37,653 nucleotides of DNA, taken from Chrysochromulina parva (taxonomy: Eukaryota > Haptophyta > Prymnesiales > Chrysochromulinaceae). The stretch is from the NCBI GenBank assembly GCA_002887195.1, contig PJAB01000147.1, positions 1 to 37,653 on the forward strand, read 5' to 3'. Position numbers and translations under genes: made by a program. This document shows, in pieces, positions 3,857 to 22,000 of the stretch; the stretch's first letter is position 1, and the number at the start of each line of letters is the position of its first letter. The notes below the pieces were generated by a model. The model saw only the letters and a program-made list of their open reading frames with translations. It was not told the origin of the DNA and ran no database searches.

Positions 3857-6208
3857 ACCGAGGGCGAGCCGCCGCCGCGCGAGGAGGAGGAGAAGGAGGA
3901 GGAGGCCGACACAAATGAGGTCACGCCCCAGTCGGTGCAGCACCCTCCCTTCGGCGTGGGCCGCGCGTCGCTGGGCGACTTGATCCCGCGCCGCCGGACC
4001 GACACGACCGACTACCGGCTGTCGGGGCTGCCGATCCATCCGCCTCGCCGCCTCACCCTCGAGCTCGACATCTTGCCTTGTGAGCTCACCCTCGAGATTG
4101 CCTTGTGAGCTCACCCTCGAGATTGCCTTGTGAGCGTCCCAAATCGAAGCCCGAGCTCGAGGAGGCGAAGCCCGATGCGCCCCTACCTTGCATGCACACG
4201 CTCACGACGACGCCTCCGCTTCCCCACAGGTGAGCGTCCGAAAGCGAAGCCCGAGCCCGAGGAGGCGGCCGCCGAGTACCACGCCGGCTCGTACGTGGAG
4301 AGTGGGACCCTCGTGACCGTGTACGTCGAGCTCGCGTCGCCTCTCGGGGCCGAGGGCAAACCGAAACCCAAGGCGGAGCTGCAGCGGATGATCACGCTCA
4401 TCAGGTACGCCGACACCCCAGTGCTGCACGCCCTGGCCAGCTGCATGCAAGTGCTCAATGCGGCGTCCTCTCCTCCCCACAGGTACGCCGACACCCCAGT
4501 GCTGCACGCCCTGCTCGCGGTGGTCAAGGCGGCCAACGACGCGATCGGGATGGGGTCCGCCTCCGCGTGGGAGTCATACAAGGAGTCGGCTCGTGAGGAC
4601 CTCGACCTGGTGACCGGCGTGCATCTCGTCGACGGCGAGTGCAGGCTCTTCTTCTTCGAGGGGCTCGCCGCGACGGCCCCGGACGATCCGAACCCGAACG
4701 CCATGGGACGACTCGCCAAGCTGCTCGAGCGGCGCAAGCCGAACTCGGGCACGGCGTTCACGCTCATGGACAGCTCGATCACGTTCTCGGAGCGGCTGTA
4801 TAACACCTTCGAGATGCCCACGAAGCTGATCAAGCTGCGCCAGCCGATCCCCGCGCTGCTGCTCCGGCCCGACGTGTACCGGTACCTTCGCGTGGCCGAA
4901 GGCACTCAAAAGGCCCTCCTCTGCCTTGGATGCCTGCTTGGCTCGCAGACGCTGCGCACGGCGTACAAGGCGAGCGCCTTCCCGCACTGGGAGCACCTGC
5001 TGCAGCTCGAGAAGAAGTTTGGCGGCGTGCAGCTCGTCGCCGACCGAGAGGGCGTGATGCTCGATGACGACGATGAAGATGAGCCATTCGATCCGATGGC
5101 GGAGACGGGCGCGGCGCCGGTGAAGAAGCAACGGCACCGGCCCGCCGCGCGCAAGGCGCCGACCGATGGGGACAACGAGGCATGGTACAAGTCTCTCGAG
5201 GCGCGCGCGCTCATGCAGCCGATCGACTACCTTGCCAAGAACATCGCCGAGCTGCCGCAGCCGCCGCCGCCCGCGCCACTCCCTCAGTGGTACCTTGACG
5301 CGATTCCGAAGCTCGAAGGGCCAGCGTACATTTACTCTGGCCAGCGGCTCAACCAGCAGGAGCAGCAAAAGGAACTGCTCCGCCAGGCGCTCATCAAGCT
5401 GCACAAGGAGAAGAACATTCAGATGACGTACAACAAGGAGTTCTTGTGGGCGGACTCGGTGGGCGATCGCGAGCCGCCGAAGCCGAAGCGAGAGCAGATC
5501 CCGAACATGAAGCCCGACGCGCACCTCGCGCCGTGGGACATCAAGCAGCCCATCATCCACAACAAGGACGGCACCACCTCGAGCTTCCGAATACTGCAGC
5601 CGTCCGACTACCGCTCCGAAGAGCTGAAGGAGCCTTGGGACGAGGAGGAGCTGCTGCGCTCGCAGCGGCCCATCCAGCCGCCTGGGCCACTGCCGCCGGG
5701 CGCGATGCACCACTCGCGCCGATGGGACCCGAACCCGTGCCCGAACGACTTTTTGGACGAGGACATCCACGAGCGGATGCGCTCCGTCTTCTCGGGCATG
5801 ACGGAGGAGCAGATCGCCGCCGAGAAGCTCGCCGCCGTCGACGGCGCCGTCAAGACATGGCGCGACAAGCTCGTCGTCGACGACCCAGTGCTGCGCATCA
5901 ACCTGCGATCGAGCGACTACGCGTCGCAGGTCGACAAGCTGAGCTCCGTTCTCGACGACAGGCCGGTCAAGAAGGCGCTCAAGTCGCTCTACAAGGGCAA
6001 GACACCGCTGAAACTGGCGGCCGAGCCGTCCGCCTTCACCCTATCGGTACCGTACGAAGAGGCAAGCACCCAGGGGCTCTCGCTCACCTGGCGCGGCTCG
6101 ACGTCGTGGAAGCCATCCTCGGACGGGCTCGATGTGACCCTCGCGGCGACGAAGGGCAAGTCGAAGGGAAAGAAGGTCACGATGTCGCTGCCGCAGAGCC
6201 ACCGGTGA
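2861..6208 (+). CDS. CFAP92-like (DUF4550-type) flagellar protein, 3 exons
   Basis: Exons 2861-4079, 4230-4404 and 4483-6208 join in frame to 1039 residues. The start is ATG 2861 (MADRPSSRELGGG); the frame is open further upstream but has no earlier ATG. Exon 1 has two poly-Pro runs from CCG repeats (about 3031-3060 and 3822-3856) and a Glu-rich run (3883-3908). They flank a domain with KLNFDFEVVEQP, CVTLVRADGLPS and a WNERKMLLAG segment. Exon 3 is Lys/Pro/Glu-rich with conserved-looking stretches such as DVYRYLRVAEGTQKALLCL and a C-terminal beta-rich end. This architecture recalls CFAP92/KIAA1257, which is linked to cilia and flagella; the match is from memory and uncertain. Both introns lie next to copies of the exon sequence that follows them. 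The joined frame D-I-L-P-C-E-R-P supports the first splice. Confidence 0.55.
4080..4229 (+). other. intron 1 of CFAP92-like gene
   Basis: 150 bases, GT-AG. Three GTGAGC donors occur at 4080, 4105 and 4130, created by two tandem copies of a 25-base unit that itself copies the exon end. Only the donor at 4080 keeps the frame (phase 1). Bases 4130 to about 4170 are a slightly diverged copy of the start of exon 2 (4230 to about 4270). The GCATGC-type core follows at 4190, then a pyrimidine tract and CACAG. Confidence 0.75.
4405..4482 (+). other. intron 2 of CFAP92-like gene, flanked by perfect 34-bp duplication
   Basis: 78 bases, GT-AG, phase 2. Bases 4402-4435 are repeated without mismatch at 4480-4513, so the intron starts with a copy of the next exon's first 31 bases. 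The 44 bases between the copies contain the shared core starting at 4443 and a CT-rich tract ending in CACAG. The intron is a multiple of three with no stop, so retention would insert 26 residues and duplicate YADTPVLHAL. Confidence 0.8.
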
Positions 6209-6496
6209 GAAACACCAGGCCCTGCGTGTCCCGCCGGGGGGCGACGCGGACATGACGGATCATGACATACATTGGTCGAAGCTCAGCGCGCCGCGGAAGT
6301 CGTGTTGACCTGAGTCTATTTGAACGAAAACCCGTCACATCCCTGACACCGAGATGGGATCTCTTTTGAGCAAGTGTGTCTGGGAAGTGGAACTTCACAT
6401 GAAGTCAAAGGTTCGTCACTTCTTTTCCGTCGCCCCCTGGGTCAGTGTCGTCAGTGGACTACCTTGGGCCCGCGCGCACGCCCCCGATCGTGATCC

Positions 6497-7264
6497 ATGC
6501 GCCTCGGCATCTGCTTCTCTCCCGCGGGATTGCTCTTCCCTTACTACGTCGGCGCGGGCTATGAGCTGCAGCGCCTCGGCATACTGCAACCGCAGACGCC
6601 ACTCGGTGGCTCCAGCGCCGGGGCCATCGTTGCAGCATGCCTTGCCTGTGGTGTGCCTGAGGAGACAGTGAGGCTAGGGCTGGCGCGACTCGTGGACGAC
6701 GTGCGCGCCGGCACGCGGCTCAACGTGGCGCTCCGCAAGCAGCTCGAGACATTTATGAACGACGACTCTCCCGCGCTGGCTGCGAAGCATGGCCTGACAC
6801 TGGGCTACTTTGAGGTGCTGCCGCGACCCGGCCCACGGCTCGTGCGTGCTTGGGCTGACCGCGACGACCTCATCGACTGCATCTGCGCCTCTTCCAACTG
6901 GCCCCTCTTCTTCTCTCGCTGGCCATTTGTCAGATGCCGCGGCGCGTGGTGCCTGGACGGCTTCTTCTCCGTGCCTCGCAGCCGCTTCGGCTGCCCAGTA
7001 CTCAGTGAAGGCGTAACGCGCACGCTCGCCATCACTGCTCTGCCGAAGGTGTCGCTCTCGGCCTTTCTAGACGAGGACATCATCCAGCCGGGGCGCGCGG
7101 GATATGCTCCCGCGCTGCCCGTCGACGACAGCAAGTGGTTCAACTGGGCGCTGACGCCAGCGCCCGACGAGCAGCTTGATGCGATGGTCGAACTCGGGCG
7201 GCAGCATGCTCGCGTGTGGGCTTCAAGGGAGCGCGATTCGTTGTCGCCGGCGACCCTGATATGA
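6497..7264 (+). CDS. patatin-like phospholipase / lipid acyl hydrolase
   Basis: Intact 255-residue single-exon protein. Patatin-fold signatures are in place: an N-terminal glycine-containing loop (FSPAGLLFPYYVGAGYELQRLG) that forms the oxyanion hole, the nucleophile elbow GGSSAGAIVAA with GxSxG centred on Ser40, and the catalytic Asp in the CLDGFF segment (Asp154-Gly155). Patatin-like enzymes use a Ser-Asp dyad to release fatty acids from phospholipids or galactolipids. At 255 residues it is little more than the catalytic domain. The N-terminus starts directly at the fold, so there is no signal peptide and it is probably cytosolic or peripheral to a membrane. The start at 6497 is the only ATG that fits. 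It lies about 290 bases after the CFAP92-like gene and has no visible functional link to it. Confidence 0.85.
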   Translation: MRLGICFSPAGLLFPYYVGAGYELQRLGILQPQTPLGGSSAGAIVAACLACGVPEETVRLGLARLVDDVRAGTRLNVALRKQLETFMNDDSPALAAKHGLTLGYFEVLPRPGPRLVRAWADRDDLIDCICASSNWPLFFSRWPFVRCRGAWCLDGFFSVPRSRFGCPVLSEGVTRTLAITALPKVSLSAFLDEDIIQPGRAGYAPALPVDDSKWFNWALTPAPDEQLDAMVELGRQHARVWASRERDSLSPATLI

Positions 7265-8060
7265 GACGTGTGAATTGTGTGCCGGCCGCCGGGACACAGC
7301 GACACACCGCAGTTGATCGCCCTAAATTCTTGCGCGCACACACTATATATACGTCCGGCGCTGAGGCAGTGGTTTTGATCGACTCGCGACGCGAGCTCAC
7401 GCGACCGAGCGGAACAGCATCAGCCACGAGCAACGCGCAAGCGCAGCGTTATCCTTACGTTATCCGAGTGCGTCAGTTCGCGATGAGCGAGTAATGAGCG
7501 GTCTCCATACAGTCCTTAGCGCTTAGCAACCGGAAAAAAATAGGGATGGACCAGGTTTTCGTGGTTTGAACCAGGAAAAGCGGTCCGGACCAGCCCAAAG
7601 TGGTTTGGACCACCGACGGTTCGTACCACTGTTTAGTGGTTCAAACCGGGAAAACCTGGCCCATCCCTTTTTTTTTCCGGTTGCCAAGGTCTTTGGCTTG
7701 TATTGAATTATTCTCGCGAACCACTGTGACGCCCACGTGCCGTTGCCGATCGGATTGATCATGATTGATGCATACATCTGTTACGAGAGACGCCCATAAT
7801 AAGAATAGGGGGGGCGGGCGGCTAGCTGGAGGCGTTTCCAAGGGGGCGTTTCCCGTTTTCACTCATTCACTGCTCATACACAGGCCCCTGTGTAAGGAGT
7901 GTAACGTCTACAGCTAGCCTTAGTCTGCGCCCTCCACGGTATGTCTCCACGGGACTGGTGGCCGTGCGTCTTACCGAGATGGCAAACTTGAGGGGTACCT
8001 CCGGCTTGACTTCACACCTGGGCATCGGGAACTAACGGCTGGAGGATCGGCAGGGAGTCA
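7265..8060. other. intergenic, 796 bases
   Basis: Holds the fold-back element above. Otherwise I see only a TATATATA stretch at 7343-7350 and no convincing reading frame. Confidence 0.5.
7522..7688. repeat. fold-back (MITE-like) inverted-repeat element
   Basis: The two ends are inverted copies of each other: arm 7522-7573 pairs with 7635-7688 with only a few mismatches, beginning CTTAGCAACCGG on one side and its complement on the other, each with an A/T run. The centre is made of smaller palindromes of the type GTGGTTTGAACCA and GGTCCGGACC. It is about 167 bases with no coding capacity and no clear target-site duplication. It could be a MITE, or a fold-back transcription terminator/3' processing hairpin for the patatin gene. 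Confidence 0.75.
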
Positions 8061-8520
8061 ATGCCGCTCCTCAAGCAGGAATCCAAGATGGCCGCCGGGC
8101 CCACTGACGCGTTCGCGGAGCTGGAGGCGCTCCGCTCGGCCAAGGAGCGCGAAGTCCATGCCGCCGGCGCCGCCCAGCCCATTGTTCCGGCGGTCGCTCT
8201 CCAGCAGTTCCTTGTCCTGCTCCAAGCGAAGAAGTTTGAGAAGGCCAAGGCACTCGCCTTCCGCCGTGCGTGCAGCCCGCTCGCATCGCCGCCCATGGCG
8301 CCCATTCCACCGCTCTGCTGATGATGGCCTTCGTCGTGCCGAGCGCTCTCGCTGCTTGCGCAGTCCTGACCGACGAGCCCGACAATCAGACCATCTTGCG
8401 CTCGCTGCCTCTGATTGACATGCAACTCAAGCTGAAGGAGGGCCGTCCTGCTGATGATGACGACGAGGACGACGAGGAGGATGACGAGGATGATGATGAC
8501 GACGACGATGACGATGACGA

Positions 8521-8569
<49 letters not shown>

Positions 8570-8779
8570 GCTGACAAGCCGATTGAGAACGAGCCAGTGA
8601 TGGCCAACGGAGCCGCTGCTGCCCCCGTGCCGGCGGCTTGCGACGACACGACTGCTGCCGCGGCAATGCAGGCGGCAGCTCCGCGCCAGCCCGCGCCATC
8701 GGACGCCGAGCTGCGTAGAGAGCTGCGCAGCTTGGTCGACAGCTTGGTCGAGGAGGAGTCGACACAGGTGGTGAGGTGA
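8061..8779 (+). CDS. ERICH2-like acidic protein, 2 exons
   Basis: Exons 8061-8265 and 8364-8779 join in phase 1 to 206 residues. The splice restores a continuous helical-pair segment: LQQFLVLLQAKKFEKAKALA, then a junction giving FRLLTDEPDNQTIL and RSLPLIDMQLKLKEG. That pattern (two helices, then EP-x-N, then LPLI) and the following acidic tail resemble glutamate-rich protein 2 (ERICH2). I recall ERICH2 from ciliated organisms; its molecular role is unknown. The tail contains an almost uninterrupted run of more than 30 Asp (about 8450-8570, GAC/GAT codons), followed by an Ala-rich stretch and a short C-terminal helix (ELRRELRSLVDSLVEEE). Without splicing, both halves would end or begin in unrelated sequence. 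An internal ATG ten codons in (MAAGPTD) is an alternative start. Confidence 0.6.
8266..8363 (+). other. intron of ERICH2-like gene
   Basis: 98 bases, GTGCGT donor, GCGCAG acceptor, phase 1. It carries neither the shared core nor the GATTGCC repeat. It is predicted from frame and family pattern. Confidence 0.6.
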
Positions 8780-10206
8780 GACGTGCAACGGCGAGCAGAG
8801 TCCAGAGAGAGTCCGTCGCGGCCAGACGTGAGGTGACGCCGTGCCCGTGATATCGCGAGCGTCGACCAAGCCTGACGAATATTTCATGATGCCGGTGTGC
8901 GCCGTGCACTAAATATATCCCCAGCCGCACGCATCTTCGTGATTCGAAACGATCTGCCGTACGGGGTACGCGGGTACGCACGCCGCACGCGGCTTTGGAA
9001 TTATATTCGTGAGCCTGAGCGCATAGTTACCCCTTACCCGAGGACCGTCGGTCCCCCCGCACCGAATCGCGAATGCGCCGCCGTAGAACGCCGTAGGCCC
9101 GTGTAGCCTCGGTTATTTGTACGGTCAACGTAAGGTCAACGGTGGATCGCGGCCCCGCCGGCCCGTCGTCCCCGCCAGCGGATTCGCCTTTCGCGCACTG
9201 CCACGCCTTGGAAATTATGCCTGGGGGTATCCCCCTCGCCAGGTCGAGCGTCGCCTCCCGTCCTCCCGTGTCCCGTCCTGCCGTTTTCCTGCCCGGTCCA
9301 CAGGTTGACTCATTTTGCCGATCACATGACACGTTGATACCCAGAGCACCCGCAGGCGCAGCTAAGGCGCAGCCACATGACATTCAGGCTCTGGAGGTCT
9401 GGTGCAGTGGTGCTCTCATCGTCTCATGAGTCTCAACTACTCGTCTAAATTACATGAATCTCGTCTGAGTTGCCTTACTATTGCCAAAAATCCACCACCC
9501 TCGAGGTCTTGCGTGGTTCCTTGAGATCGTACCCGGTGTGCAGTGCTTCTGCAGGACGGCGATATCCCCCGCGGGAGCGTAGCGCCCCCGTGGGAGGGGG
9601 GAGCACAAAGGGTTTGCCCGAGTACACAGACGAGCGTGGAAACGGCATGACGCCAATGACAGAGAGGCGTGAGGCATCGCGCACGTTGAGCGTCGTCGCA
9701 TGATGGATAGACGTCTTCTGGTGCGGCAAGTTACGCACAGCTTGCGGTGGCACCTTCCGGACCCGTCGCTGGGCCGATACTGGCGCCTGCAGGCCAAACC
9801 GTAATGCATGTAAGGGGAACGTCCCGCTCGCTATCGGCGCAGCTCGGATAGCAGCGCAACGCAGTGACCGTGGCGACGCAGCAGCAGTACGGTTTGCCCA
9901 GTTGACCGCTTGTGGACGATTCATGGGGGAACCATGCAAACCACGCGTCCTTTCGGGTGAAAGCTGATAGGTGAGTGTGTACGACATGCGATCAACACAA
10001 AGAAGTCTTGTAGCAAACGGACCCAGTGCCCTTTTCATCAGCGATGCATGCAAGATTCATTGCGAACGGGCGTGGTGCGACTACGAGCGGCAGCACTTCG
10101 AAAATGGTCAGCTCGGCAGAGTCTCGGCAGTCGATCTGACACGTTCTGTCTGACGATCTCGGCAGCTCCCGAACCTGTCCCGAAGCACTCCCGAAGCTCG
10201 GTCCGA
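8780..10206. other. intergenic, 1.4 kb, no supported gene
   Basis: Several open frames of 60-190 codons occur on both strands (for example 9478-10053 minus and 9027-9383 minus). None shows a signal peptide, domain or repeat that I recognise, and they overlap each other. The sequence is less GC-biased than the genes and may include decayed mobile DNA; I could not identify one. The last 160 bases before 10207 are open in the frame of the next gene and could be 5' UTR. Confidence 0.5.
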
Positions 10207-12694
10207 ATGGGTGTCCGTGCGCCGGCACTGCTGGTGCTACTCGCAGCGTCGCCGTGGCACGCTCTGCGCATCATGCCTCACGCGCGTGTGCACGCGCCGG
10301 TGGGTCGACCACGCCTGCGGCTGCCGCGGCTCTCGATCATTGATTTTCCTGGAGACTCAGCCGCAGAGAAAGGAGGCAAACAGCCGTCACCAAACAAGCC
10401 TGGGGCCGCCGAGTCGCGGCTTCGATTCCCCGAGGAACGTGAAGGAGCGTGGAGGGCTGCCTCGCGCGACGGTGCCGCCAATGTAGGCTACTACCTCGAC
10501 GAGCTCTCGCAGCCATTCTGGAGGCGCAACGTGCGAGTGGAGGTGCTTTCAGAGTACCCAGTGGGTACGCCGGAGGCCAACCCGGAGGTGGGCGGGCGTC
10601 AGCGGGAGATCCAGTGGTTTCGCGGCCTGCGCGACGACCTGCGCCGCAGGCTGCCGCTCTACACCTCCGACTGGGTGGACGGTGTGAGCTCGAGCGGCCG
10701 ATCGAAATCTCTCGCCGCCATCTCCTTTTTGTACTTTGCATGCCTCGCACCGGTGGTCGCCTTCGGTGGCGCGCTCTCCGGGCTCACGCAGGGCGCGATG
10801 GGCGTCTCCGAGGTGCGCCTCGCCTGCGTGCTTTCCTAATATGGGCTCCCGCGCCGTCTCCCTGCACGCTGCATGCAAATGCTCAGCACGGCGCGCAACC
10901 ATCGCTCCCCTCTTCCCACAGGTACTCCTCTCATGTGGGATCTGCGGCATGGGATACGCGGCCCTGTGCGGCCAGCCCATGACCTTCGTCGCTCCGACGG
11001 GCCTCACCCTCGCCTTCACCGCCGCCCTCTTCCGCTACTGTGCCAGCCTCGGACTCCCCTTCTTGCCCATGTATTCGTGGGTAGGTTGCTGGACAGCGCT
11101 GCTTCTCGTATGCGGCGCGGCGGTCAACGCGTCCGGCCTGATACGGTACTGCACGCGATTCACCGAGGACGTCTTCAACGCGTTGCTCGGCGTCAACTTC
11201 CTCTGGGAGGCGTCACGCTCGCTCATTCGCGACTTCAAGGGCGCCGCCAACCCGGGAGGTGGGTGGCTCGCAACGCTGCGGGAGGCTCGGCATGCATGTG
11301 CTCACCACGGCGCGCTCGGTGGCTCGCTCTCCACGCTGCGGACGGCTCGGCATGCCTGTGCTCACCACGGCGCGCCCCCCCTCGCCCTCAGGTGGGATGC
11401 TCGCGCTCAACATGGGGCTGCTCACCGCGTACCTGCTGCAGAAGACGTCCGAGTTTCGATCGACGCGATACCTCTCACGCAAATGGCGTGAGGGCGTCTC
11501 GGACTTTGGCCCCTCGGCGGTGATCATGGGCCTCTCTGCCCTGTCGCTGCTGCCAGTTCTCGAGCACATCGGCACCTTCTCGCGCCTCTCGATGCCCGGG
11601 GGCTTCCAATTGAGCGGAGGGCGAGCGCTCTTCGTCAACATGCTCGAGCTCGAGCCCACCTACCGGTATCTCGCTCTGATCCCGGCTATCTTTCTCTCGT
11701 TGCTCTTCTTCCTGGATCAGGTGATGGCCCTTGATGGCCACTGATGGCCACTGATGGCCATCGGGTGTCATTGTTTGCCACTGATTGCCACTGATGACCT
11801 CGCCAAGTTCGCACTGATGGCCACTGATGGCCATCGGGTGTCATTGATTGCCACTGATTGCCACTGATTGCCACTGATTGCCACTGATGACCTCGCCAAG
11901 TTCGCACTGATGGCCACGGATTGCCACTGATGGCCACTGATGACCTCGCCAAGTTCGCACTGATGGCCACTGATTGCCACTGATGGCCACTGATGACCTC
12001 GCCAAGTTCGCCGCTCCTCTGCCTTGATCAGAACATCACCGTGCGGACAGTCAACTCGCCCTCGCACAAGCTGCGCAAGGGGCAAGCGTACCACCTCGAC
12101 CTATGTGCGCTCGGCGTGCTCACGCTCTTCGCCTCGCTGACGGGGCTTCCGTGGATGTGTTCGGCGACCGTACAGTCGCTCAACCATGTACGCGCGATGA
12201 CTGTCTACAGGAAGATCAAGCCCAAGGACGGGCCCGAGCTCGAGGTGCCAGATTACGTGGTCGAGACACGGGTCACCGGATTCGGCGTGCATGCCGCCGT
12301 ACTGTGCTCCGCCCTCGCAATCCCGACACTCTCGCTCGTGCCCTTGCCTGTCGTCGCGGGGGTCTTCCTCTACCTAGGGCGCAAGGTCATGACAGGTAAC
12401 CAGTTCATCCGCCGGTGCAAGCAGCTCTTCCTTGATGAGGACGAGCTGTGCATCAAGACTGAGGGCGAGAAAGAGCAAGTGATCCTCGGGCGTAAGGCCG
12501 TCTGGCGCTTCACGGCGATGCAGGTCCTGTGCCTCACCATCCTCTGGTGCCTCAAGCTCACGCCCAGCACGGCGCTCATCTTCCCGTCGGTCATTGGCGT
12601 GCTCATGATCCTTCGATCCAAGCTCATCCCGAAGCTGTTCACAGGTCGCGAACTCATGCTCCTCGACACCGCGATCGGTGCCACGAGCGCATGA
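10207..12694 (+). CDS. SLC4-family anion (bicarbonate/borate) transporter, 4 exons
   Basis: Exons 10207-10812, 10922-11258, 11392-11720 and 12032-12694 join to 644 residues. Exon 1 begins with a signal peptide (MGVRAPALLVLLAASPWHALR) and a basic region, then a short cytosolic-type domain and the DWVDG segment leading into TM1. The exons supply the SLC4 membrane domain: GGALSGLTQGAMGVSEV, CGQPMTFVAPTGL, LFYLDQ-like FLDQ|NITVRTVN across the exon 3/4 junction, KGQAYHLDL and GLPWMCSATVQSLNH. These are hallmarks of HCO3 transporters. SLC4 proteins exchange or co-transport HCO3- or borate. The presequence suggests a plastid-envelope or other endomembrane site, which would suit inorganic-carbon supply to the plastid; this is inference. 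An in-frame ATG at 10048 would add 53 residues and bury the signal peptide, so I prefer 10207. Confidence 0.85.
10813..10921 (+). other. intron 1 of SLC4 gene
   Basis: 109 bases, GT-AG, phase 0. The first bases (coding VRLACVL if read through) weakly match the start of exon 2 (VLLSCGI), like a decayed duplication. The shared core begins at 10871, followed by a CT-rich tract and CCCACAG. Confidence 0.75.
11259..11391 (+). other. intron 2 of SLC4 gene, double core
   Basis: 133 bases, GT-AG, phase 1. It contains two tandem copies of a ~60-base unit carrying the core (starting 11290 and 11350). The intron start (GTGGGTGGCTCGC) resembles the exon 3 start (GTGGGATGCTCGC). Confidence 0.75.
11721..12031 (+). 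repeat. intron 3 of SLC4 gene: TGATKGCCAC minisatellite
   Basis: 311 bases, GT-AG, phase 0, splitting the conserved FLDQ|NIT motif. Almost all of it is 10-base units TGATGGCCAC or TGATTGCCAC. A longer unit, TGATGACCTCGCCAAGTTCG, is interspersed four times. It ends TTGATCAG, echoing the GGATCAG at the end of exon 3. Confidence 0.85.
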
Positions 12695-13292
12695 GCCCGC
12701 ACGCGCGATCCACGGCACTGCCCGACACGGCGCTACATGACACGTGAGCGCTCGCAGTTGCACCACGCCTGAGCCTGCGCAGTCGCGCCGAAACCGAAGA
12801 TTTCGACTACGTTCCGATATGTCCAACATGCATGTGCATATGCTCTGCTCCCAATACAGTAACTCAACAGTACAGTACGGTACCGGGCGAGTGTGCGTGG
12901 ATCCACGACCACGTGCGGTTCGGTGCGCTTAGTCGGTGCGGTTCTGTGCTGTGTGGTGGATGAACATCAAGACATGAAGAACACGGTCCCGCAGTGCGGC
13001 GTTTGAGGTGATTGGACTGTGCATTGACCTACTCGTGGATTTCAATTTTCCCTTGCCTATATTCACGGCCCGAAAAAACTTGGTACATTGTGTTGATTTG
13101 TCGGCACGCACACTCGCTTTGAAGTCTGTGCATAACGCCGCGAGCGCGCGCATGCTCCATGTCTCGTGTGGGGTCATCTAAGGTGTGTGTATTCTGAGCG
13201 GGTTACCACCGCTTGCCGCTTGAACCTTAACAGCCTGAACGTTCACACGAGACGAAGCGCATGAAGCGCTTTTTTCGGACGACTTGTGGTCC
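12695..13292. other. intergenic, ~600 bases
   Basis: No reading frame, RNA gene or repeat that I can support. It must hold the SLC4 3' end and the LRR-gene promoter. Confidence 0.5.
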
Positions 13293-14234
13293 ATGTCTGA
13301 ATCAGACGATGACCTCTTCGCGCACGCGGAAGTCGAGTGCGAGCCTACCTTCCCGCTCTTTCAGCTTTGGGGCGGTCTCGACATCAACCAGATCGTCAAT
13401 CAGACTGCTCCGGCCATGCCGCTGTCAGCAGAGTTCATTGCCGCACATGTGTTGGCGGCCAAAACAGGCGGCATCGAGCATCTCGACTTCGATGATCAGG
13501 ACGTCGGCGACGCAGGTTTGTACGCTCTGGTGAAGGCGTGCGAGGCTGCGGGCACGCTCCCGCATCTCGGGCGACTGTCTCTGTCCAACACCAGCGTGAA
13601 GACCGAGGGCATTCAGGCGCTGGCGTCCATGCTCTCAACCTCAGGCGGGAGCCCGGTGCCGCAGCTCAGCGCCCTCAACGTGAGTGGCAACTCTTTCGGA
13701 GACAGTGCTCTCTCAGCCATAGGCGGCGCAGTCGAGAGCGGCAACCTCTCCACTCTGCGCAAGCTCTACATGGACCGCACGCTCATCGGCGATGATGGGT
13801 TGGCTGACTTTGCCGCCGCGGCGAGCAGCCGGCCCGGGCTGCTCCCGAGCTTGTACGAGCTCTGGCTGAGCAATAACCACATTGGAGACTGGGGCGCGAG
13901 GGCATTGTGTGATGCCCTCGGCCGCGGCGGCGCCATGCCAAATCTGGGAGACTTGAGATTGCAATATAATCGGGTTGGTGATGCGACGGCTACCGCGCTC
14001 GTGGCGGCGGCGGCAGCGGGCGCGCTGCGCAACATGTGGTACCTCGGCCTCAACGACAATCAGTTCACCGATGAGGGCCTCGTGGCGATCGGATCCAGCC
14101 TCAGCGCGGGCGCGTTGCCCAAACTCGAGTTCCTCACAGTGCAGGGCAGCAGCGCCTCTGCGGACGCAGCCCAGCGGGTGCAGTGCGCTCTCACTGCCAG
14201 GCGCAAGAGGAGCCTCGAGGAGCGGCAGACTTGA
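13293..14234 (+). CDS. leucine-rich repeat protein (RNI/NLRC3-like)
   Basis: Intact single-exon protein of 313 residues starting MSESDDDLFAHAE. From about residue 60 to the end it is built of 28-32-residue LRRs of the ribonuclease-inhibitor type. Repeat cores include IEHLDFDDQDVGDAGL, LGRLSLSNTSVKTEGI, LSALNVSGNSFGDSAL, LRKLYMDRTLIGDDGL, LYELWLSNNHIGDWGA, LGDLRLQYNRVGDATA and MWYLGLNDNQFTDEGL. That is about seven or eight repeats with the G-D-x-G turn typical of NLRC3-like proteins. There is no signal peptide, transmembrane helix or NACHT domain, so it is probably a cytosolic protein-binding scaffold whose partner cannot be told from sequence. The C-terminus is short and basic (ARRKRSLEERQT). 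ALG3 starts only 80 bases downstream on the same strand. Confidence 0.8.
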   Translation: MSESDDDLFAHAEVECEPTFPLFQLWGGLDINQIVNQTAPAMPLSAEFIAAHVLAAKTGGIEHLDFDDQDVGDAGLYALVKACEAAGTLPHLGRLSLSNTSVKTEGIQALASMLSTSGGSPVPQLSALNVSGNSFGDSALSAIGGAVESGNLSTLRKLYMDRTLIGDDGLADFAAAASSRPGLLPSLYELWLSNNHIGDWGARALCDALGRGGAMPNLGDLRLQYNRVGDATATALVAAAAAGALRNMWYLGLNDNQFTDEGLVAIGSSLSAGALPKLEFLTVQGSSASADAAQRVQCALTARRKRSLEERQT

Positions 14235-14313
14235 ACGAATTAGCATTGTGAAAAACGTAAAACGGACCTTTTTGGTGTGATCAGGAGCACCTAGAATAGG
14301 ACGCCGCCGCCGC

Positions 14314-15982
14314 ATGACAGACATGGTGTCACGATGGTGGCGACGATTTGAGGTATGGTGCGCTGGGCTGCTTGTGGCCGAGACGCTCCTAACGGCCCTC
14401 ATCGTGCTCAAGCGTCCGTACACGGAGATTGATTGGAAGGCGTACATGGAGGAGGTAAAGGGTCCGATCGATGAGGGCACCTTCGATTACATGCAGCTGC
14501 GAGGTGCCACGGGCCCACTCGTCTACCCTGGCGGCTTCGTTGCTCTCTACGGGGCTCTGCGCGCGCTCGCGGGCGGCGACGGCTCCGACATCCGCACAGC
14601 GCAATGGGCCTTTGTTGGCGTGTACGTTGGGACGCACGCTCTCGCGGCGGCGTGCTACGCGGCTGCACGGCCACGCTCCATGCCACCGTGGGCACTGCTC
14701 CTCCTGTGCATCTCGCTCCGCCTGCACTCCATCTACGTGCTGCGCCTCTTCAACGACTGCTGGGCCATGCTGCTAGCGTGGGCTTCCTTCGCCCTCTTCT
14801 GCAGAGGTCGCTGGGTGGTGGGTTGCGTGTGCTTCTCGCTGGGCGTGGGCGTCAAGATGAGCGTGCTCCTATACGCCCCCGGGCTGCTCTTCCTGCTCCT
14901 CGAGGCGCACGGCATCGCCGGGGCCGTCTGCCACATTGCGATCTGTGCCTTGGTGCAACTCGTCCTCGGGCTGCCCTTCCTGTTGACGAACCCCGTCGGT
15001 TACCTTCTGCGTGCTTTTGGGGGCTTCGGCGACCTGAACCAAAAATGGTCGGTCAACTGGAAGATGCTCCCAGCGCAGCTCTTCCAAGCGCGCGCCTTCG
15101 CGCCGGGGCTCCTCCTCCTCCACCTATGCACCCTCGGCTTGCTGGCGAGGTATCGCTGGGGTACCCGCGATGAAGGAGGTGTGGTGCGTGCTCTCAAACG
15201 CGCACCGCTGCCGCTGGGCGCGCTGGTGCAGCGGCGGCTGTCGGCGACGCACGTGCTAACAGTCCTGCTCGGCTCCATGGCGGTCGGCGTCGTCTTCGCT
15301 CGGTCGCTCCACTACCAGTTTTACTGCTGGTATTGGCACTCACTGCCGTGGCTGCTGTGGCGGAGCACGTCGTTCCCAGTGCCTGCGAAGCTCGTGTGCT
15401 TTGCTCTTCTTGAGTACGCTGATTGGCACGGATGGCCACTGACTGCCTCTCGAGTGCCTCCTGTGACCGCCAATTGCACACCTCATCAGGTACGCGTGGA
15501 GCTACGGCGTGGACAGAGCAGATGGCACGCCAACACCACGGTCCTCAATCTCGCTGCAGCTCGCGCATCTCCTCCTCCTCATCGCGCTCGGCATGGCGCC
15601 GCCCACAACGGCGCTCGAATGCGTGCCTGCGCCGCCGGATGAGGGCGCCTATGCCCACGACGGCGCTGCGGACTTGGCCGCTGCCATAGTCCTCGTCAAC
15701 AACGAGCACGCCGACGAGGTGGCGGCCCTCGCAGCACGTCGAGGTGCCGTCTCGCCTGCCGACGCGCGTGGTGCGCTGCTCATCGCAGCCGATGGCACAA
15801 GCGGCGAGCTCTCGATCCAGCTCTGGGAGGGGCGTATCGTGTGCGTGAGCACAAATGGCTCCGCTCTCAAACACAATGTGGTCCCTGAGCGGATGGAACG
15901 AGACGTTGTGGCGGGCAGCAGGCGGCAGAGGTACACAAGTGAAGAGCTGCTCGACAGGATCCAGCGGGCCGCGCGGGAATGA
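14314..15982 (+). CDS. ALG3: ALG3 alpha-1,3-mannosyltransferase, 2 exons, C-terminal extension
   Basis: Exons 14314-15413 and 15490-15982 join in phase 2 to 530 residues. ALG3 transfers mannose from dolichyl-phosphate-mannose to Man5GlcNAc2-PP-dolichol in the ER lumen, starting the luminal arm of N-glycan precursor assembly. Family landmarks are clear: EIDWKAYMEEV, DYMQLRGATGPLVYPGGFV, a series of hydrophobic helices, RLHSIYVLRLFNDCWAM, GVGVKMSVLLYAPGL, WSVNWKMLPAQLF and RSLHYQFYCWYWHSLPWLL. The splice restores the last helices (LLEYAWSYG and LQLAHLLLLIALG). After that helix there are about 115 extra residues rich in Ala, Arg and Glu (CVPAPPDEGAY to the end). I do not know these from other ALG3 proteins and see no known domain in them. 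Reading through the intron would end the protein at 15642 in unrelated sequence. Confidence 0.88.
15414..15489 (+). other. intron of ALG3
   Basis: 76 bases, GT-AG, phase 2, ending CTCATCAG. The intron start GTACGCTGATTGGCACGG resembles the exon 2 start GTACGCGTGGAGCTACGG. The middle has GATTGGCAC/GATGGCCACTGACTGCCTC, the same motif as the minisatellite introns. Confidence 0.8.
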
Positions 15983-16782
15983 GAGGGTGGGGTACCAGGA
16001 TGGAAGGTCATTTCGATAAAATGAGAGGGACCACCATGTTGGAAGGTTCATTAATCATAGAGGGTGCCGCGTGGAGGGTTCGTGCATTGAGATTGATAGA
16101 ACTTGACATCGATCGCTTCTCGACCGTTCTACGGACTACGCGCCGCGCGCGACGTTCTACTTCTAGCCTACTTCTCAAGCCCCGTGCCACTTGCACCTCA
16201 AACTCGCGTAGCGCCGGCCCTGATCCCGAGCTTAGCCTGAGGTATGGACCTCGTCCGGAGCGGTCGACGGGGGTAGACGGGGGGATCGTCCAGTCGGATC
16301 GCCTTTTTCGGCACACGCGGCGCTAAACCGGCTGTGTACGTGTGTAAGCACGACCGCGCCGGGCGGCGCAACTGCATCGTCGCGCCAACCGCCGCGCGCC
16401 TATGCATCGCACCACATTCGCGTGGAACGGCATCGGCAAAACCGCAACCGATCCTCTCATCTCTCCGCGCTTTAGTCCGCGCCCCTCCGTACGCTCGCGG
16501 CTCCGGGCGCTGCGCCGTGCCCGGCGAGCGGCGTGGACGCGACTCGCGAGCCCCATACACCCGGCGTCGCGGCGTCACAGCACAGAGGAACGTGACCAAC
16601 TCCAATGTATCAGTTTTCTATTTTAGAGCGCGGGTGGGGGCGCGATTTAACTGAGGCAAAACTGACTGATTGGCTGACCGTTTTGATTTTTGTACCGCCG
16701 GGGCTATACGGCTGTGATCGATTGAATGATGAATTCGGCCTGAGGAGGTGTCAGCCGAGCTTCGCTGCTGCTTGATGACTGC
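15983..16782. other. convergent intergenic region, 800 bases
   Basis: Lies between ALG3 (plus) and the coiled-coil gene (minus), so it contains two 3' ends. I see no supported gene. Short open frames here lack any recognisable feature. Confidence 0.5.
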
Positions 16783-17973
16783 TTAATGTTCATCCTCCGG
16801 GTTCAAAGCCGTCTTGCGCGTCGCCGGGTCGGTGTTTCGTTGTTCGCTCGAGCCAAAATTGCCCGTATTGATCGCCCGCCGCTGTTTCACCACGATCTCG
16901 CGCGCGGTGCGCACCGAAATCTGCAGTGCCGACTTCCTGCTATTGAGTTCGGTGCGCGCGTCTCGCACCGCCCTGAGCGCCTTGTTGATCGCGTCGCGCG
17001 CGCCGTCCTCACGCTCTGCGGCGACCTCGGTTGCCTCGTGCCCTGTCATCTTCGAGGATGGGTTGTATGGCGATGGCAGCCGGCCGATTTCCGATCCCAT
17101 ATTCTTGTCGTCGAGCGGCAGCGTGAGCGGGGCCATCGGGTTCATTTTCTGGTAGAGGACCGACGTTTTGATGACCGGGTTAGAAAGTACCGGGTCAAAG
17201 AGCGAGTCGCGCATGTCCCTGTGCGACTCGAGGATCGCTTTGATCTCTTGGCACTCCCCCATCTGCTTGATGACCTTCTCTTTGAACGGCACGAGTTCGG
17301 CGGCCATGCGGGATGCCGAATCCCTCAGCTTCTCGAGCTCGGTGACGATTGGCTTATTGGCGACGCCGCTCATTCGGCCCTTCGACTGAGTCAACATCTT
17401 CTCCTTCTCGAGCACCTTCTTCACTTCTTCTCCAATCTCATACTCCGTGGGGAAGCGCTCGTCGCCACTCGCCCAAAGCTCATCGCGCAGCCTATCTTTA
17501 AGCTCCTGCATCTCAGTATCATTGAGCTTCCGCGGGCCGAAGGTAGGACCCTTGGGCCCCTTGGGGCCTGTCTCTTTGGTGGACGCGTGCATGCGCGCGT
17601 TGCTCTCCAGAGATACGTGTGCGCTCCTAGCCGCAGCCTCCAGCTCAGCAATCGTGCCATTGACGACCGCCATGGCTTGCTCGAGACGCGCTATCGAGTG
17701 GTCCGTCGTGCGCACGGCCGCGGCCAGCTCCTTGAAGAGTGAACGCGATGCCTTCTTCTGTCGAGGCGTCAGCGGCGATGCCGCTGTGGCGGAGTTGGGC
17801 TTCACAGGGCTCGGAACCGGGCTCCCAGACCGCCCCGGGCTTCCTGGACGCCCAGGGCTACGCCCTCGAGGCGCAGACGCAGCACGTCCCTTTGATGCGG
17901 CTGCGCCAAAGCCGGCAATCTTTGGAACGGGCGACGGCGGTAGCGCGACTGGGGGCGGTGGGGCAGGAGGCAT
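16783..17973 (-). CDS. coiled-coil protein of unknown function
   Basis: The frame runs to its stop at 16783-16785. The first in-frame ATG is at 17973 (MPPAPPPPVALPP), giving 396 residues. The frame stays open to 18039 without an ATG, so an upstream exon is possible. The N-terminal ~95 residues are Pro/Ser/Gly/Arg-rich and disordered (repeats of the type GRPGSPGRSGSP). From about residue 100 there are long heptad-like helices (KKASRSLFKELAAAVRTTDH, EYEIGEEVKKVLEKEKML, TELEKLRDSASRMAAEL). Between them is a segment (LFDPVLSNPVIKTSVLYQKMN) that may be a conserved loop. I do not recognise the family; a cytoskeletal or axonemal role is possible but not shown. The gene is head-to-head with the LHC gene, about 220 bases apart. 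Confidence 0.65.
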   Translation of the reverse strand: MPPAPPPPVALPPSPVPKIAGFGAAASKGRAASAPRGRSPGRPGSPGRSGSPVPSPVKPNSATAASPLTPRQKKASRSLFKELAAAVRTTDHSIARLEQAMAVVNGTIAELEAAARSAHVSLESNARMHASTKETGPKGPKGPTFGPRKLNDTEMQELKDRLRDELWASGDERFPTEYEIGEEVKKVLEKEKMLTQSKGRMSGVANKPIVTELEKLRDSASRMAAELVPFKEKVIKQMGECQEIKAILESHRDMRDSLFDPVLSNPVIKTSVLYQKMNPMAPLTLPLDDKNMGSEIGRLPSPYNPSSKMTGHEATEVAAEREDGARDAINKALRAVRDARTELNSRKSALQISVRTAREIVVKQRRAINTGNFGSSEQRNTDPATRKTALNPEDEH

Positions 17974-18195
17974 CACGCCGGCGCCCGGCCGTCGAGGATC
18001 CACGGCCGTCACGAATTTCGAGTCGCGTTGTCGCGGCAAGGTCGCGAAGTGTCCATACCCGATTTCGAGTCCGTGAAAAAGAGGGACACCATGAAGCAGC
18101 CTAATCAGACCCTCAGTTCTACACGGGACACGGGACTCGGTTCAGCCGATTCCGTGCAGGATCTCGCGTCGAGATCGTTCTTTCGCCGAGCCTCG

Positions 18196-18936
18196 ATGCC
18201 GTGCTCGATGCCGCGTTCATTGATTCTCTTGTCGACCCATGTGGTCGCGAGCGCCGCGTTTGGGACGTCTGAAGTGTCCAAAGCGATGCGTCCTGCATCC
18301 TGGTTTCCCGGGGCCGTTGCACCCTCGTACCTCGATGGAACGCTTGCAGGCGACGTCGGCTTCGACCCTTATGCACTCGCCGCGCTCGCGCCAACTGGCG
18401 CAAGCGTCGACCAGGGTCCGTGGAGTGGTACGGATCGCAAGTCACGGATGGTTATGGCCACAGACTACGAGAAGCGTCGCAAGGTCATGTGGATGCGCGA
18501 GGCCGAGATCAAGCACAGCCGCATCGCCATGATGGCAGCCGCAGGCTGGCCGATCTCGGAGCTACTCGACGGGCCGCTAAGCCGCTTGCTGGGCCTGCCC
18601 ACGCTTCTTGCCGACGGTGGCCGTGCGCCATCGCTCTTCGCCCTCTCGGGGCCCCAAGGAGGCTTCGTGCTGCTTGCCATGCTCTCGACCGCCGTCCTCG
18701 AGCTGAAGACACTGGACAACGTCGCTGGCCTCACGCCGACCGGGTACGTGGCTGGCGACCTCAAGTGGGATCCGCTCGAGCTGAGGAGCAAGCGGAAAGA
18801 CATGGACCTCGCTGAGATAAAGCATGGGCGTCTGGCGATGCTCGCGGTCACCGGTATGGCCGTGCAGGAGTTTTTCTGGGGCACGCCCGTCGTTGAGCAA
18901 ACCCCCCAGTTCTTCAAGCCGATCGGCTTCTATTGA
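18196..18936 (+). CDS. chlorophyll-binding LHC protein (red-lineage, fucoxanthin type)
   Basis: Single-exon protein of 246 residues from ATG 18196. An in-frame ATG at 18091 exists but would bury the signal peptide. MPCSMPRSLILLSTHVVASAAF is a signal peptide with an ASAFAP-like cleavage site (VASA|AF), the mark of import into red-derived secondary plastids. The mature N-terminus has the LHC entry motif WFPGAVAPSYLDGTLAGDVGFDP. Helix 1 and helix 3 carry the paired E-x-x-H-x-R chlorophyll ligands: REAEIKHSRIAMMAAAGWP and LAEIKHGRLAMLAVTGMAVQE. Helix 2 is GGFVLLAMLSTAVLEL. The protein harvests light in the thylakoid with chlorophyll a/c and fucoxanthin-type carotenoids. I cannot assign the subfamily (Lhcf, Lhcr or Lhcx) by eye. 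It is divergent from the coiled-coil gene. Confidence 0.93.
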   Translation: MPCSMPRSLILLSTHVVASAAFGTSEVSKAMRPASWFPGAVAPSYLDGTLAGDVGFDPYALAALAPTGASVDQGPWSGTDRKSRMVMATDYEKRRKVMWMREAEIKHSRIAMMAAAGWPISELLDGPLSRLLGLPTLLADGGRAPSLFALSGPQGGFVLLAMLSTAVLELKTLDNVAGLTPTGYVAGDLKWDPLELRSKRKDMDLAEIKHGRLAMLAVTGMAVQEFFWGTPVVEQTPQFFKPIGFY

Positions 18937-19091
18937 GATATGCAAGACATGCTCAAATATTACGTCGGGTCCCGTAGAGCACGTGTCGGTGAGGGCGAGC
19001 GGTAGGGGAGCGGGGTAGTCAGAACCGGGTAACCGGGACAAAAAATCCAAATATGGGTGTGAACCCGCTGTGAACGTTTTTCGCGCTCTAC

Positions 19092-22000
19092 ATGGCGGCG
19101 AACTCCATCGCGCCCCCGCCAAACGACGCGGATGATGAGACCAAGCGCTTGCAAGCCGATAGCGACGCGGTAGGCGCCGCGCAGGACTCGGAGATATTCG
19201 CCAACTACGCACCAACACACGCCAACCCAGGCCCTCCGCACCCTGGAGACGTCGCGGAGGCAGCCTCGCTCGCGGCGACGGCAGCACCGAGAACGACCTA
19301 CGAAGTCATCGAGGTGCTTCGCACGGGCGGCACGCTCTCTAACTTGCAGCTCGAGTGTGTGCAACTCGCTTCGCAGCGTCACCTTACGGTGCTGCCCATG
19401 CAGCCGCCGACGCGCTGTGGCTTCTTCCTGGGCGACGGGGCGGGCGTCGGCAAGGGACGGCAGCTGGCGGGCATCATCCTGGACAACCTCGCCCGCGGTC
19501 GATCCAAGCACCTCTGGTTTTCCTCTTCAGCCGACCTGAAACACGACGCCGTCCGCGACCTGAGCGACCTCGGCTGCCATCTGCCCGTTCACGACGGGTG
19601 CCAGGGCCTAGACCGCGGTTCCAAGGGGCTCGGCCTCTCGACCGAGATGACCCGGGGCGTGCTCTTCTCGACGTACGCCACGCTCGTCTCGGCCACCAGC
19701 GCGCAGAAGCAGAGTGGCAAGAGCCGGCTGCGCCAGCTTGTCGAATGGTGCGGCGGACCCGACTTCGAGGGCTGCCTGATGCTCGACGAGTGCCACAAGG
19801 CGAAAAACTTCCAGCCGGGCAAGGAGGAAGCGTCCTCGAAGGTGGCGCAGGCGGTCATCGAGCTGCAGCGCGCGCTGCCGATGGCGCGCGTCGTCTACTG
19901 CTCCGCCACGGGCGCCTCGGACCTATCGAACATGGCCTACATGGAGCGTCTAGGGCTATGGGGGCCCTTCTCAGCCTTCGCCACCTTCGAGGCGTTCACA
20001 GAGGGCGTCAAGAACCGCGGCGTGGGCGGCCTCGAGATGCTCGCGATGGAGATGAAGGCGAGCTCGCCACTGAGGCCCACTGATGGCTTGTGATGGGCCT
20101 CGGAGTCCCTCTGATGGGCCTTTGATGGGCCTCTGAGTGCCTCTGAGTGCCTCTGAGTGCCTCTGAGTGCCTCTGATTGCCTCTGATTGCCTCGGATTGC
20201 CTCTGATTGCATCGGATTGCCTCGGATGGGCCTTTGATTGCCTCGGATTGCCTCGGATTGCCTCTGATGGGCCTCGGTTTGCCTCTGATGGTCTCTGCTG
20301 ATGCCCGCCCTCATCAGGCGAGCGGCTCGTACCTGATTGCCTCTGATGACCTCTGATTGCCCCCCTCATCAGGCGAGCGGCTCGTACCTGAGCCGCGGCC
20401 TCTCCTATCGCGAGGCCGAGTTCGAGCTCGCCACGGTCCCGCTCACCTTCGAGCAACGCGCGTGCTTCGATGCAGCGGCGCATTTCTGGTCGGATCGTCT
20501 CTTGCCGGCTGTCGAGACGGCGGTGGCGCGGACACAGACGGCCGCCGGCCGCCTCGCGCAGCAGGCATGGTCCGCACATCAACGGTTCTTCAAACAGCTC
20601 TGCGTGAGCTGCAAGGTGTGGCACCCGCGCTCGTGTTGAACGCCCAGCACGGCGCCAGACCTCCCGCTTGCATGCGAGTGCCCATCACGGCGCGCGTCGC
20701 CCTCCGACGCGAGCGCCCAGCCCGGCGCTCTCGCATGCACGCGCTCACAACGGCGCCATTCTACGTACCTCTTCGCATGTCCAGGTGCCCGCGCTCGTCG
20801 AGCGCGCGCGTGCCGCGCAAGCCGACGGGTACGCCGTCGTGATTGGGCTGCAATCGACGGGCGAGGCGGCGCTCGAGAAGGCGATCGCCGCCGACGCGGA
20901 CCTGCGTGCCCCCATCTCTCTCTGCCGCGCCATCGTGCTCGGGTTCCTCGAAGCTCATTTCCCAGTGACCAAGGCCGCGGACGCCAAGCTCGACAAGGAG
21001 CTCAACCGGGCTGAGGAGACTGTGCGTGCACACAACTGACGAAACACGCTTCCCGAATGGCCTCGCTCCTTGACGAAGCACGATTCCCGAATAGCCTCGC
21101 TCCTTGACGAAGCACGATTCCCGAATGGCCTCGCTCCTTGACGAAGCACGATTCCCGAATGGCCTCGCTCCTTGACGAAGCACGATTCCCGAATGGCCAC
21201 GCTCTTTGACGAAACACGATTCCCGAATAGCCTCGCTCCTTGACGAGACACGATTCCCGAATCGCCTCGCTCCTTGACGAAACACGATTCCCGAATCGCC
21301 TCGCTCCTTGCCTCGCACATAGCGCCGCCCTGAGCGCCGCCCTGAGCGCCTCCCTGAGCGCCTCCTCATCAGGTGCTGGCCTGCAAACATCAGCTTGCAA
21401 GCATCCGTGCGGCCGCCTCGAGCGCCGGCGGGTACGGGCTGAGCATCGAGTCCCAGCAGGCGATTGCCCAGGCAGAGCGCATGCTCGCGAGCGCTGTCAT
21501 AGCAGTCGTGCAGCTGCAGGCCGCGGTGGACGCAGACAGGGCGGCGAGCGGGCAGATTGATCCGGAGTGCTTTGCCGAGCGCCAACGGCTCGTCGACGAG
21601 GTGCGTTGATTGCACTTGATTGCGCTTGATTACAATTGATTGCACTTGATTGCTCTTGAGCGCGCGCCAACGGCTGGTCGACGAGGTGACTCGACTCGAG
21701 CTGCCACCCGCCCAGCATGCAAGTGCTCACCACGGCGCTCGACCCCCCCCTTTCCACAGGTGAATGCACTCGAGCTGCCACCCGCCGCACTCGACGTGCT
21801 GATCGACGAGCTGGGCGGCAAGAAGGCGGTCGCCGAGATGACGGGGCGCAAGTCGCGAATGGTGCGTTCGGCGGATGGTCGACGCTTTGTGCTCGAGGCG
21901 CGCGCGAAGCCAGAGTCGTCCGAGATGGAGAATTTGAATGTCTCCGAGCGGAACGCCTTCATGGACGGCAAGAAGCTGATCGCGATCATCTCCGACGCCG

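Follow-up and report, generated by a model that had tools for sequence, protein, structure and literature searches.

Here we describe a short core sequence that recurs in predicted introns of the haptophyte Chrysochromulina parva and that, judging from its sequence context, probably belongs to an introner, i.e. a short sequence that makes new spliceosomal introns on insertion into exons. The window analysed is contig PJAB01000147.1 (assembly GCA_002887195.1), 37,653 nucleotides (nt) read on the forward strand, and the core was searched for in 45.07 Mb of the genome (2199 contigs). Many similar copies lie in predicted introns of unrelated genes, mostly in sense orientation and concentrated in genes, as found in a sample that was mostly selected by motif. 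We infer, with reasonable confidence, that the copies arise by break-type capture of fragments bearing a branch point, which would make the element an introner by function with an unusual insertion footprint. An earlier note on this DNA had proposed a mobile introner family that lands with a ready acceptor; beyond that proposal, our data indicate that the exon duplication beside the core is long and variable, that some copies are donor-bearing, and that another family has a similar footprint.

Core sequence and its genomic copies

The genome contains 1260 exact matches to GCATGCNNGTGCTCA (652 and 608 on the two strands), against six (4 and 2) for the reversed control, and 746 exact matches to GTGCTCACCACGGCG, against one for the control. 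In the window, the core 20-mer, allowed at most five mismatches, has eight copies on the plus strand, starting at 4190, 4443, 10871, 11290, 11350, 20670, 20733 and 21715, and none on the minus strand; the eight positions listed in the earlier note were all recovered exactly, as was the sense orientation claimed for them. A set of 49 distinct copies, comprising the eight of the window, 40 at other genome loci and one from IMG/VR, was defined by at most five mismatches to the 23-mer GCATGCAAGTGCTCACCACGGCG; copies outside the window with four or five mismatches are doubtful, and a set of 44 combines the window copies with the other genome copies that have at most three.

Positions 16-23 of the 23-mer, eight positions not fixed by the search pattern, agree in 86-100% of cases across 43 copies, and the flanks of the core differ between copies. 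The core includes CTCAC, which resembles a branch point (consensus yUnAy). By eye, no terminal inverted repeats were evident in the shared core, for which no systematic search was made, and a scan of the window against Rfam at gathering scores matched no known RNA family. Of three window stretches folded as RNA, one was better than its shuffles (z = -2.85) and two were not (z = -0.16 and 0.74). The element is a short, apparently non-autonomous sequence. The IMG/VR copy (L053:4430-4554) has the core with an acceptor and GT at the very end of a contig whose predicted genes we take to be bacteriophage-like, and this contig is probably a chimeric assembly; spread of the core to viruses is disfavoured.

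The eight window copies fall in six predicted introns of three unrelated genes. That the core-bearing segments are spliced introns is predicted from the continuity of frames and domains after their removal. Without segments 4080-4229 and 4405-4482, gene 1 forms one open frame with no internal stop, and its pieces matched no Pfam family. The bicarbonate transporter, spliced in silico, is a whole frame without an internal stop and matches HCO3_cotransp (PF00955) with E = 1.2e-120. The helicase frame has no internal stop through the eighth exon of the model, and the spliced model matches both Strawberry-notch domains, AAA_34 and Helicase_C_4, the AAA_34 match extending from profile positions 1-273 in the first helicase exon to 1-305 of 306 after splicing. 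The claim of six core-bearing introns in three unrelated genes is borne out accordingly, the spliced frames being open and two of the genes matching known domains. Outside the window, core-bearing introns were found in a short-chain dehydrogenase gene and a metallophosphatase gene.

By codon score, coding potential favours the strand of the core in 40 of the 44 copies. Of the 44, 40 came from the window or from motif searches and only four from unselected DNA. The exceptions are L002:1548, L003:1515, L013:1578 and L047:2460 (locus and position). The last is nonetheless in sense orientation, as its spliced exons match the short-chain dehydrogenase domain, and the codon-score test was therefore wrong for at least one copy. 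Unselected DNA totalling 200 kb contains four sure copies (one at L035, three at L047) and three doubtful ones with four to five mismatches (L040, L051).

Two arrangements of core, splice site and exon copy

In the first arrangement, type A, the intron opens with a copy of the next exon's start, and this copy appears to supply the 5' splice site. The test set comprised the 28 of the 44 copies that have an acceptor no more than 45 nt away and are not followed by a second core within 70 nt; for each, the 60-nt stretch preceding the core was aligned with the opening 60 nt of the next exon, and swaps between copies served as the null. The mean score was 18.4, compared with a mean of 7.6 and a maximum of 9.1 in 200 swap permutations, and 14 of the 28 copies scored above 16, the 99th percentile among swapped pairs. 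These 14 clear copies have a duplicated stretch that is 25-38 nt long (median 30.5) and 93% identical, with identity reaching 35 of 35 and with 30-35 identical bases at three sites; the introns are 71-100 nt long by the type A count. The duplicated stretch begins at exon base 0 in 13 of the 14, which is partly set by the method because the exon window opens there; in an unanchored alignment most simple type A copies start 0-6 nt before that base. The 5' end of the clear copies is ragged, with 0-22 extra nt, and the 3' end is constant.

The duplication ends abruptly. In 17 copies, chosen for showing an exon copy (11 of the 28 were omitted, including the indel-containing L010), matches make up 431 of 471 bases within the duplication and 42 of 177 beyond it, in the filler before the core; the edge is thus real and its position variable. 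Shorter exon copies, at or below the threshold, were seen at L008 (16/16), L004:1515 (17/21), L013:1728 (14/16) and L016:1569 (15/16). A short fixed target-site duplication of 3-9 bp was not found, the duplicates in 14 of 28 copies being long, variable and abruptly ended, and a fixed-length target duplication is disfavoured in general, as the clear exon copies end at differing lengths. GC just behind the exon copy (6 of 17 copies) was too weak a signal to use.

CACAG lies 4-24 nt behind GTGCTCACCACGGCG in 458 of the 746 genome copies, and GT directly follows it in 386 of these (84%), whereas base composition alone (63% GC) would give, by our estimate, about 6%. A GT after the acceptor would be expected if the exon start served as donor too. 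Taken with the excess of exact matches over the control and the predominance of sense copies, this supports the earlier proposal of a family with a ready acceptor. Three cores without clear adjacent splice signals (L021:1515, L029:1515 and L030:2185) lie in sequence open in one frame and may be in-frame insertions into coding exons.

In the second arrangement, type B, a donor half and the core come first and the end of the upstream exon is then repeated, its AG being the predicted acceptor. Five copies in four introns, recognized by eye on alignments, are of this type (L016:1886, L025:1501, L029:674, and L047:9291 and 9370). The copy of the upstream exon's end is 14-28 nt long, the donor half is close to GTACGTTGATTGCCACTGATGACCTGCCTT, and it is the 3' side that is ragged and the 5' side that is constant. 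TGATGACCTGCCTTGCATGC, the donor half's end joined to the core, has 72 exact occurrences, and both donor and acceptor halves are present in copies at L011, L013 and L019. The core is the part common to both types, which would be expected were a fragment to require a branch point and at least one splice site.

Among the 35 copies with a repeat, the repeat offset modulo 3 is 0 in 11, 1 in 8 and 2 in 16, so that 24 of the 35 repeats, not being multiples of three, could not be read through in frame. After removal of the offset, the upstream and downstream frames agree in 20 of the 35. Tandem units of 55-79 nt are found in several introns. At L016:1501-1592, tandem cores have identical upstream stretches of 41 nt, and the intron starts with GA, not GT, possibly a non-canonical donor or a sign that the donor lies upstream.

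Introns of the window and a second family

Positions of core-bearing introns and other repeat-built inserts in the window
Feature	Position	Strand	Core	Description
Gene 1, intron 1	4080..4229	+	4190-4212	150 nt; exon-start copy 4130-4167 vs exon 4230-4267, 35/38
Gene 1, intron 2	4405..4482	+	4443-4465	78 nt; first 31 nt = exon start 4483-4513, 31/31
Bicarbonate-transporter gene (PF00955), intron 1	10813..10921	+	10871-10893	No significant exon copy
Bicarbonate-transporter gene, intron 2	11259..11391	+	11290-11312, 11350-11372	Tandem cores; 60-nt unit; weak exon-start copy, 11/13
Strawberry-notch-type helicase gene, intron	20616..20784	+	20670, 20733 (starts)	Two cores; exon copy weak, 11 nt exact
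Helicase gene, composite intron	21601..21759	+	21715-21737	TTGATTGC-repeat insert, upstream-exon copy, downstream-exon copy, core, acceptor
Second-family intron	20058..20372	+		TGATTGCC repeats, acceptor CTCATCAG, no core; 19-nt exact exon copy 20318-20336 vs 20373-20391
Repeat-flanked insert	30744..30877	-		32-nt repeat (30/32), AG|GT boundary, around a AATTGCCC-repeat insert without core

The earlier note had every intron start resembling the start of the next exon. This holds clearly for three of the six core-bearing introns, which score 32, 31 and 21 where the 99% nulls lie at 10 to 11; the resemblance is weak in 11259-11391 (score 9, equalled by 20 of 350 nulls) and 20616-20784 (score 11, equalled by 5 of 350), and it is absent in 10813-10921 (score 7, equalled by 204 of 345). 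Likewise, the flanking duplication proved long and clear in half of the 28 genome copies tested and unclear in the other half. The two introns said to hold tandem copies, 11259-11391 and 20616-20784, do carry two cores each. In intron 4080-4229, a 25-nt repeat within the first 50 nt also copies the donor region. The composite intron 21601-21759 contains a 22-nt copy of the upstream exon's end (21664-21685 vs 21579-21600) directly before a 27-nt copy of the downstream exon's start (21686-21712 vs 21760-21786, 24/27); type B-like and type A inserts thus meet at one junction, suggesting repeated hits at one site, and recursive splicing may occur at the internal GACGAG|GTGA of this intron.

A second family consists of introns with TGATTGCC repeats and a CTCATCAG acceptor, without the core. 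TGATTGCCTCCCTCATCAG occurs 730 times in the genome, with GT or GC next in 568. Among 12 acceptors passing the filters, four exceed the 99% null for an exon copy anchored at exon base 0, the copied stretches being 19-25 nt long, and in 7 to 8 there is little sign of copying. The exact pattern of this family had no match among viral contigs. The insertion footprint may therefore not be private to one family, and its presence in the second argues, on a small sample, for a host process.

A repeat scan of the window and 20 loci, made without a null and used only to locate intron 30744-30877, gave 44 repeats. Counting the two strands together, 15 flags were of type A and 10 of type B, and several of them mark simple tandem repeats. 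Other introns of the window are also built of repeats. Region 23726-24030 has tandem units combining GTGCGATCTCCCTTGATTGCCTCCCTCATC with a 21-nt exon end (GAGAAGATCTCGCCGGAGGAG and a relative), in the upstream-exon-copy arrangement; the helicase intron at 21022-21372 is mostly a minisatellite with a unit of roughly 31-34 nt (CCTTGACGAAGCACGATTCCCGAATGGCCTCGCT); and the bicarbonate-transporter intron at 11721-12031 is made of TGATGGCCAC/TGATTGCCAC tandem repeats. Finally, the light-harvesting protein encoded in the window points to a probable prymnesiophyte haptophyte: among the matches listed, its best named one is from Prymnesium parvum (82% of the query aligned, at 66% identity), with a Prymnesium metagenome-assembled genome (MAG) lower among them.

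Origin of the introns and comparison with known systems

According to the capture mechanism, a fragment with the branch-point core and one splice site would enter a break whose strands are cut about 15-40 nt apart. Gap filling would double the exon stretch, and the doubled stretch would supply the other splice site. Only duplicates that open with a donor-like GT (type A) or close with AG (type B) would leave the messenger RNA unchanged, and such insertions would persist for that reason; tandem copies would arise afterwards in place. As a tentative extension, to which we give some weight without relying on it, new introns in this organism could result from general host-level break-and-capture and not from a family-specific transposase, given at least two unrelated families and both polarities. 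A branch point and one splice site would then be all that a captured fragment needs to become an intron, as the capture itself would double about 15-40 nt of exon and so provide the other splice site.

Several observations weigh against capture. Half of the acceptor-bearing copies (14 of 28) fail the 99% test and have no clear duplication, three of the six window introns lack a clear exon copy, and an exact start at GT could equally reflect target preference. In a cruder test of all 49 copies, whose null is raised by donor halves common to copies and which the 28-copy test replaced for type A, only 14 exceeded the 99% null of 25. Of the type B copies, L016:1886 and both L047 copies exceed the 99% level of the 49-copy null, L029:674 only the 95% level and L025:1501 neither. 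A local template for fillers of at least 10 nt was absent in seven of the eight tested, the eighth being the copy's own tandem copy. Frames agree in only 18 of 32 clear-frame copies, where chance would give about 11. Eleven of the 15 disagreements among all 35 copies fall in tandem or nested introns, whose full length is not captured by a single offset, an explanation made post hoc; the others are L009, L010, L013:1728 and L029:1515.

Among the alternatives, target-primed reverse transcription of intron RNA by machinery of the long interspersed nuclear element (LINE) type ranks first, and we regard it as unlikely. Here the CACAG end would be attached at a nick and the 5' portion cut short near the core, and a nick in the second strand would yield a long duplication of variable length. 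A constant 3' end, a ragged 5' end and variable-length duplications are typical of LINE-type insertions, and type A has all three. However, type B, ragged at 3' and constant at 5', is the reverse of the expected truncation, so that this model explains type A and not type B.

Rather improbable is a DNA-transposon introner whose target-site duplication is short and of fixed length, the further exon resemblance coming from later local duplication. Such an origin has precedent, as target-site duplications, terminal inverted repeats or both are reported for 59% of 130 judgeable introner families, and duplications described before measure 3-9 bp (PMC9860276). The clear duplications found here are far from this form, being 25-38 nt long, up to fully identical and contiguous with the splice site, and the inspection of the shared core by eye, short of a systematic search, gave no terminal inverted repeats.

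Local tandem duplication of an existing intron's 3' part together with the next exon's start, as in the potato RdRp gene (PMC4974935), seems still more doubtful. The 55-79-nt tandem units have just such a form, whereas single type A introns (e.g. 4405-4482 of the window) have no parent intron alongside; moreover, the core is common to unrelated genes, each of which must have received it from outside at least once. Finally, that the core is an immobile, conserved splicing motif of the organism is scarcely credible: CTCAC and the location of almost all collected copies in predicted introns would fit, yet other introns of the same genes lack the core (in the spliced helicase model, five out of seven do), and the agreement at positions 16-23 exceeds what a branch point needs.

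The bulk origin of new introns has long been debated. Should the missing splice site regularly come from a long exon duplication, then a branch-point-bearing fragment only tens of bases in length could found an intron without altering the protein, and families detected only by whole-intron similarity would be undercounted. Roughly 700 to 1300 exact core matches, together with exon copies of 30-35 identical bases at three sites, should make these steps directly testable.

In the literature surveyed by title and abstract, with most subscription journals and preprints outside the survey, no introner family with exon duplications this long was found. The introners of protists and fungi described by Gozashti et al. 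2022 (PMC9860276) are similar in forming many alike introns in unrelated genes, enriched in genes, and in that either splice site can derive from the duplicated target; that report includes acceptor-carrying introners in Symbiodinium and donor-carrying ones in a Chrysochromulina MAG, each with 4-bp duplications. In contrast to the 3-9 bp given there for earlier families, the clear duplications of the present family measure 25-38 nt and differ in length from copy to copy, and both polarities are found with a single core. As those families were found by intron-intron similarity, copies sharing only about 25-45 nt could, we suppose, have been missed, and introners of the present genome may already be counted among the published MAGs.

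Newly gained introns of Daphnia pulex are reported to have 4-12-bp exon repeats from staggered breaks (PMC4202315), whereas the inserted sequence here is one recurrent family. Introner elements of Amoebophrya (PMC7789003) are likewise repeated introns with direct repeats at exon borders; as described, they differ in that the direct repeats measure 3-5 nt, inverted repeats (8-20 nt) are present and numerous splice sites are non-canonical. In potato RdRp (PMC4974935), as in type A, a cryptic donor in the duplicated exon start pairs with the branch point and acceptor before the second copy; that is presented as a single case, with the parent intron adjacent. Finally, a survey of direct repeats in 213 introns (PMC11782384) reports the same two arrangements, among others, with repeats of 4-30 bp (mean 11.4 bp). 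Long repeats near splice sites are thus not unheard of, although that survey covers many intron kinds and not, as here, one repeated element.

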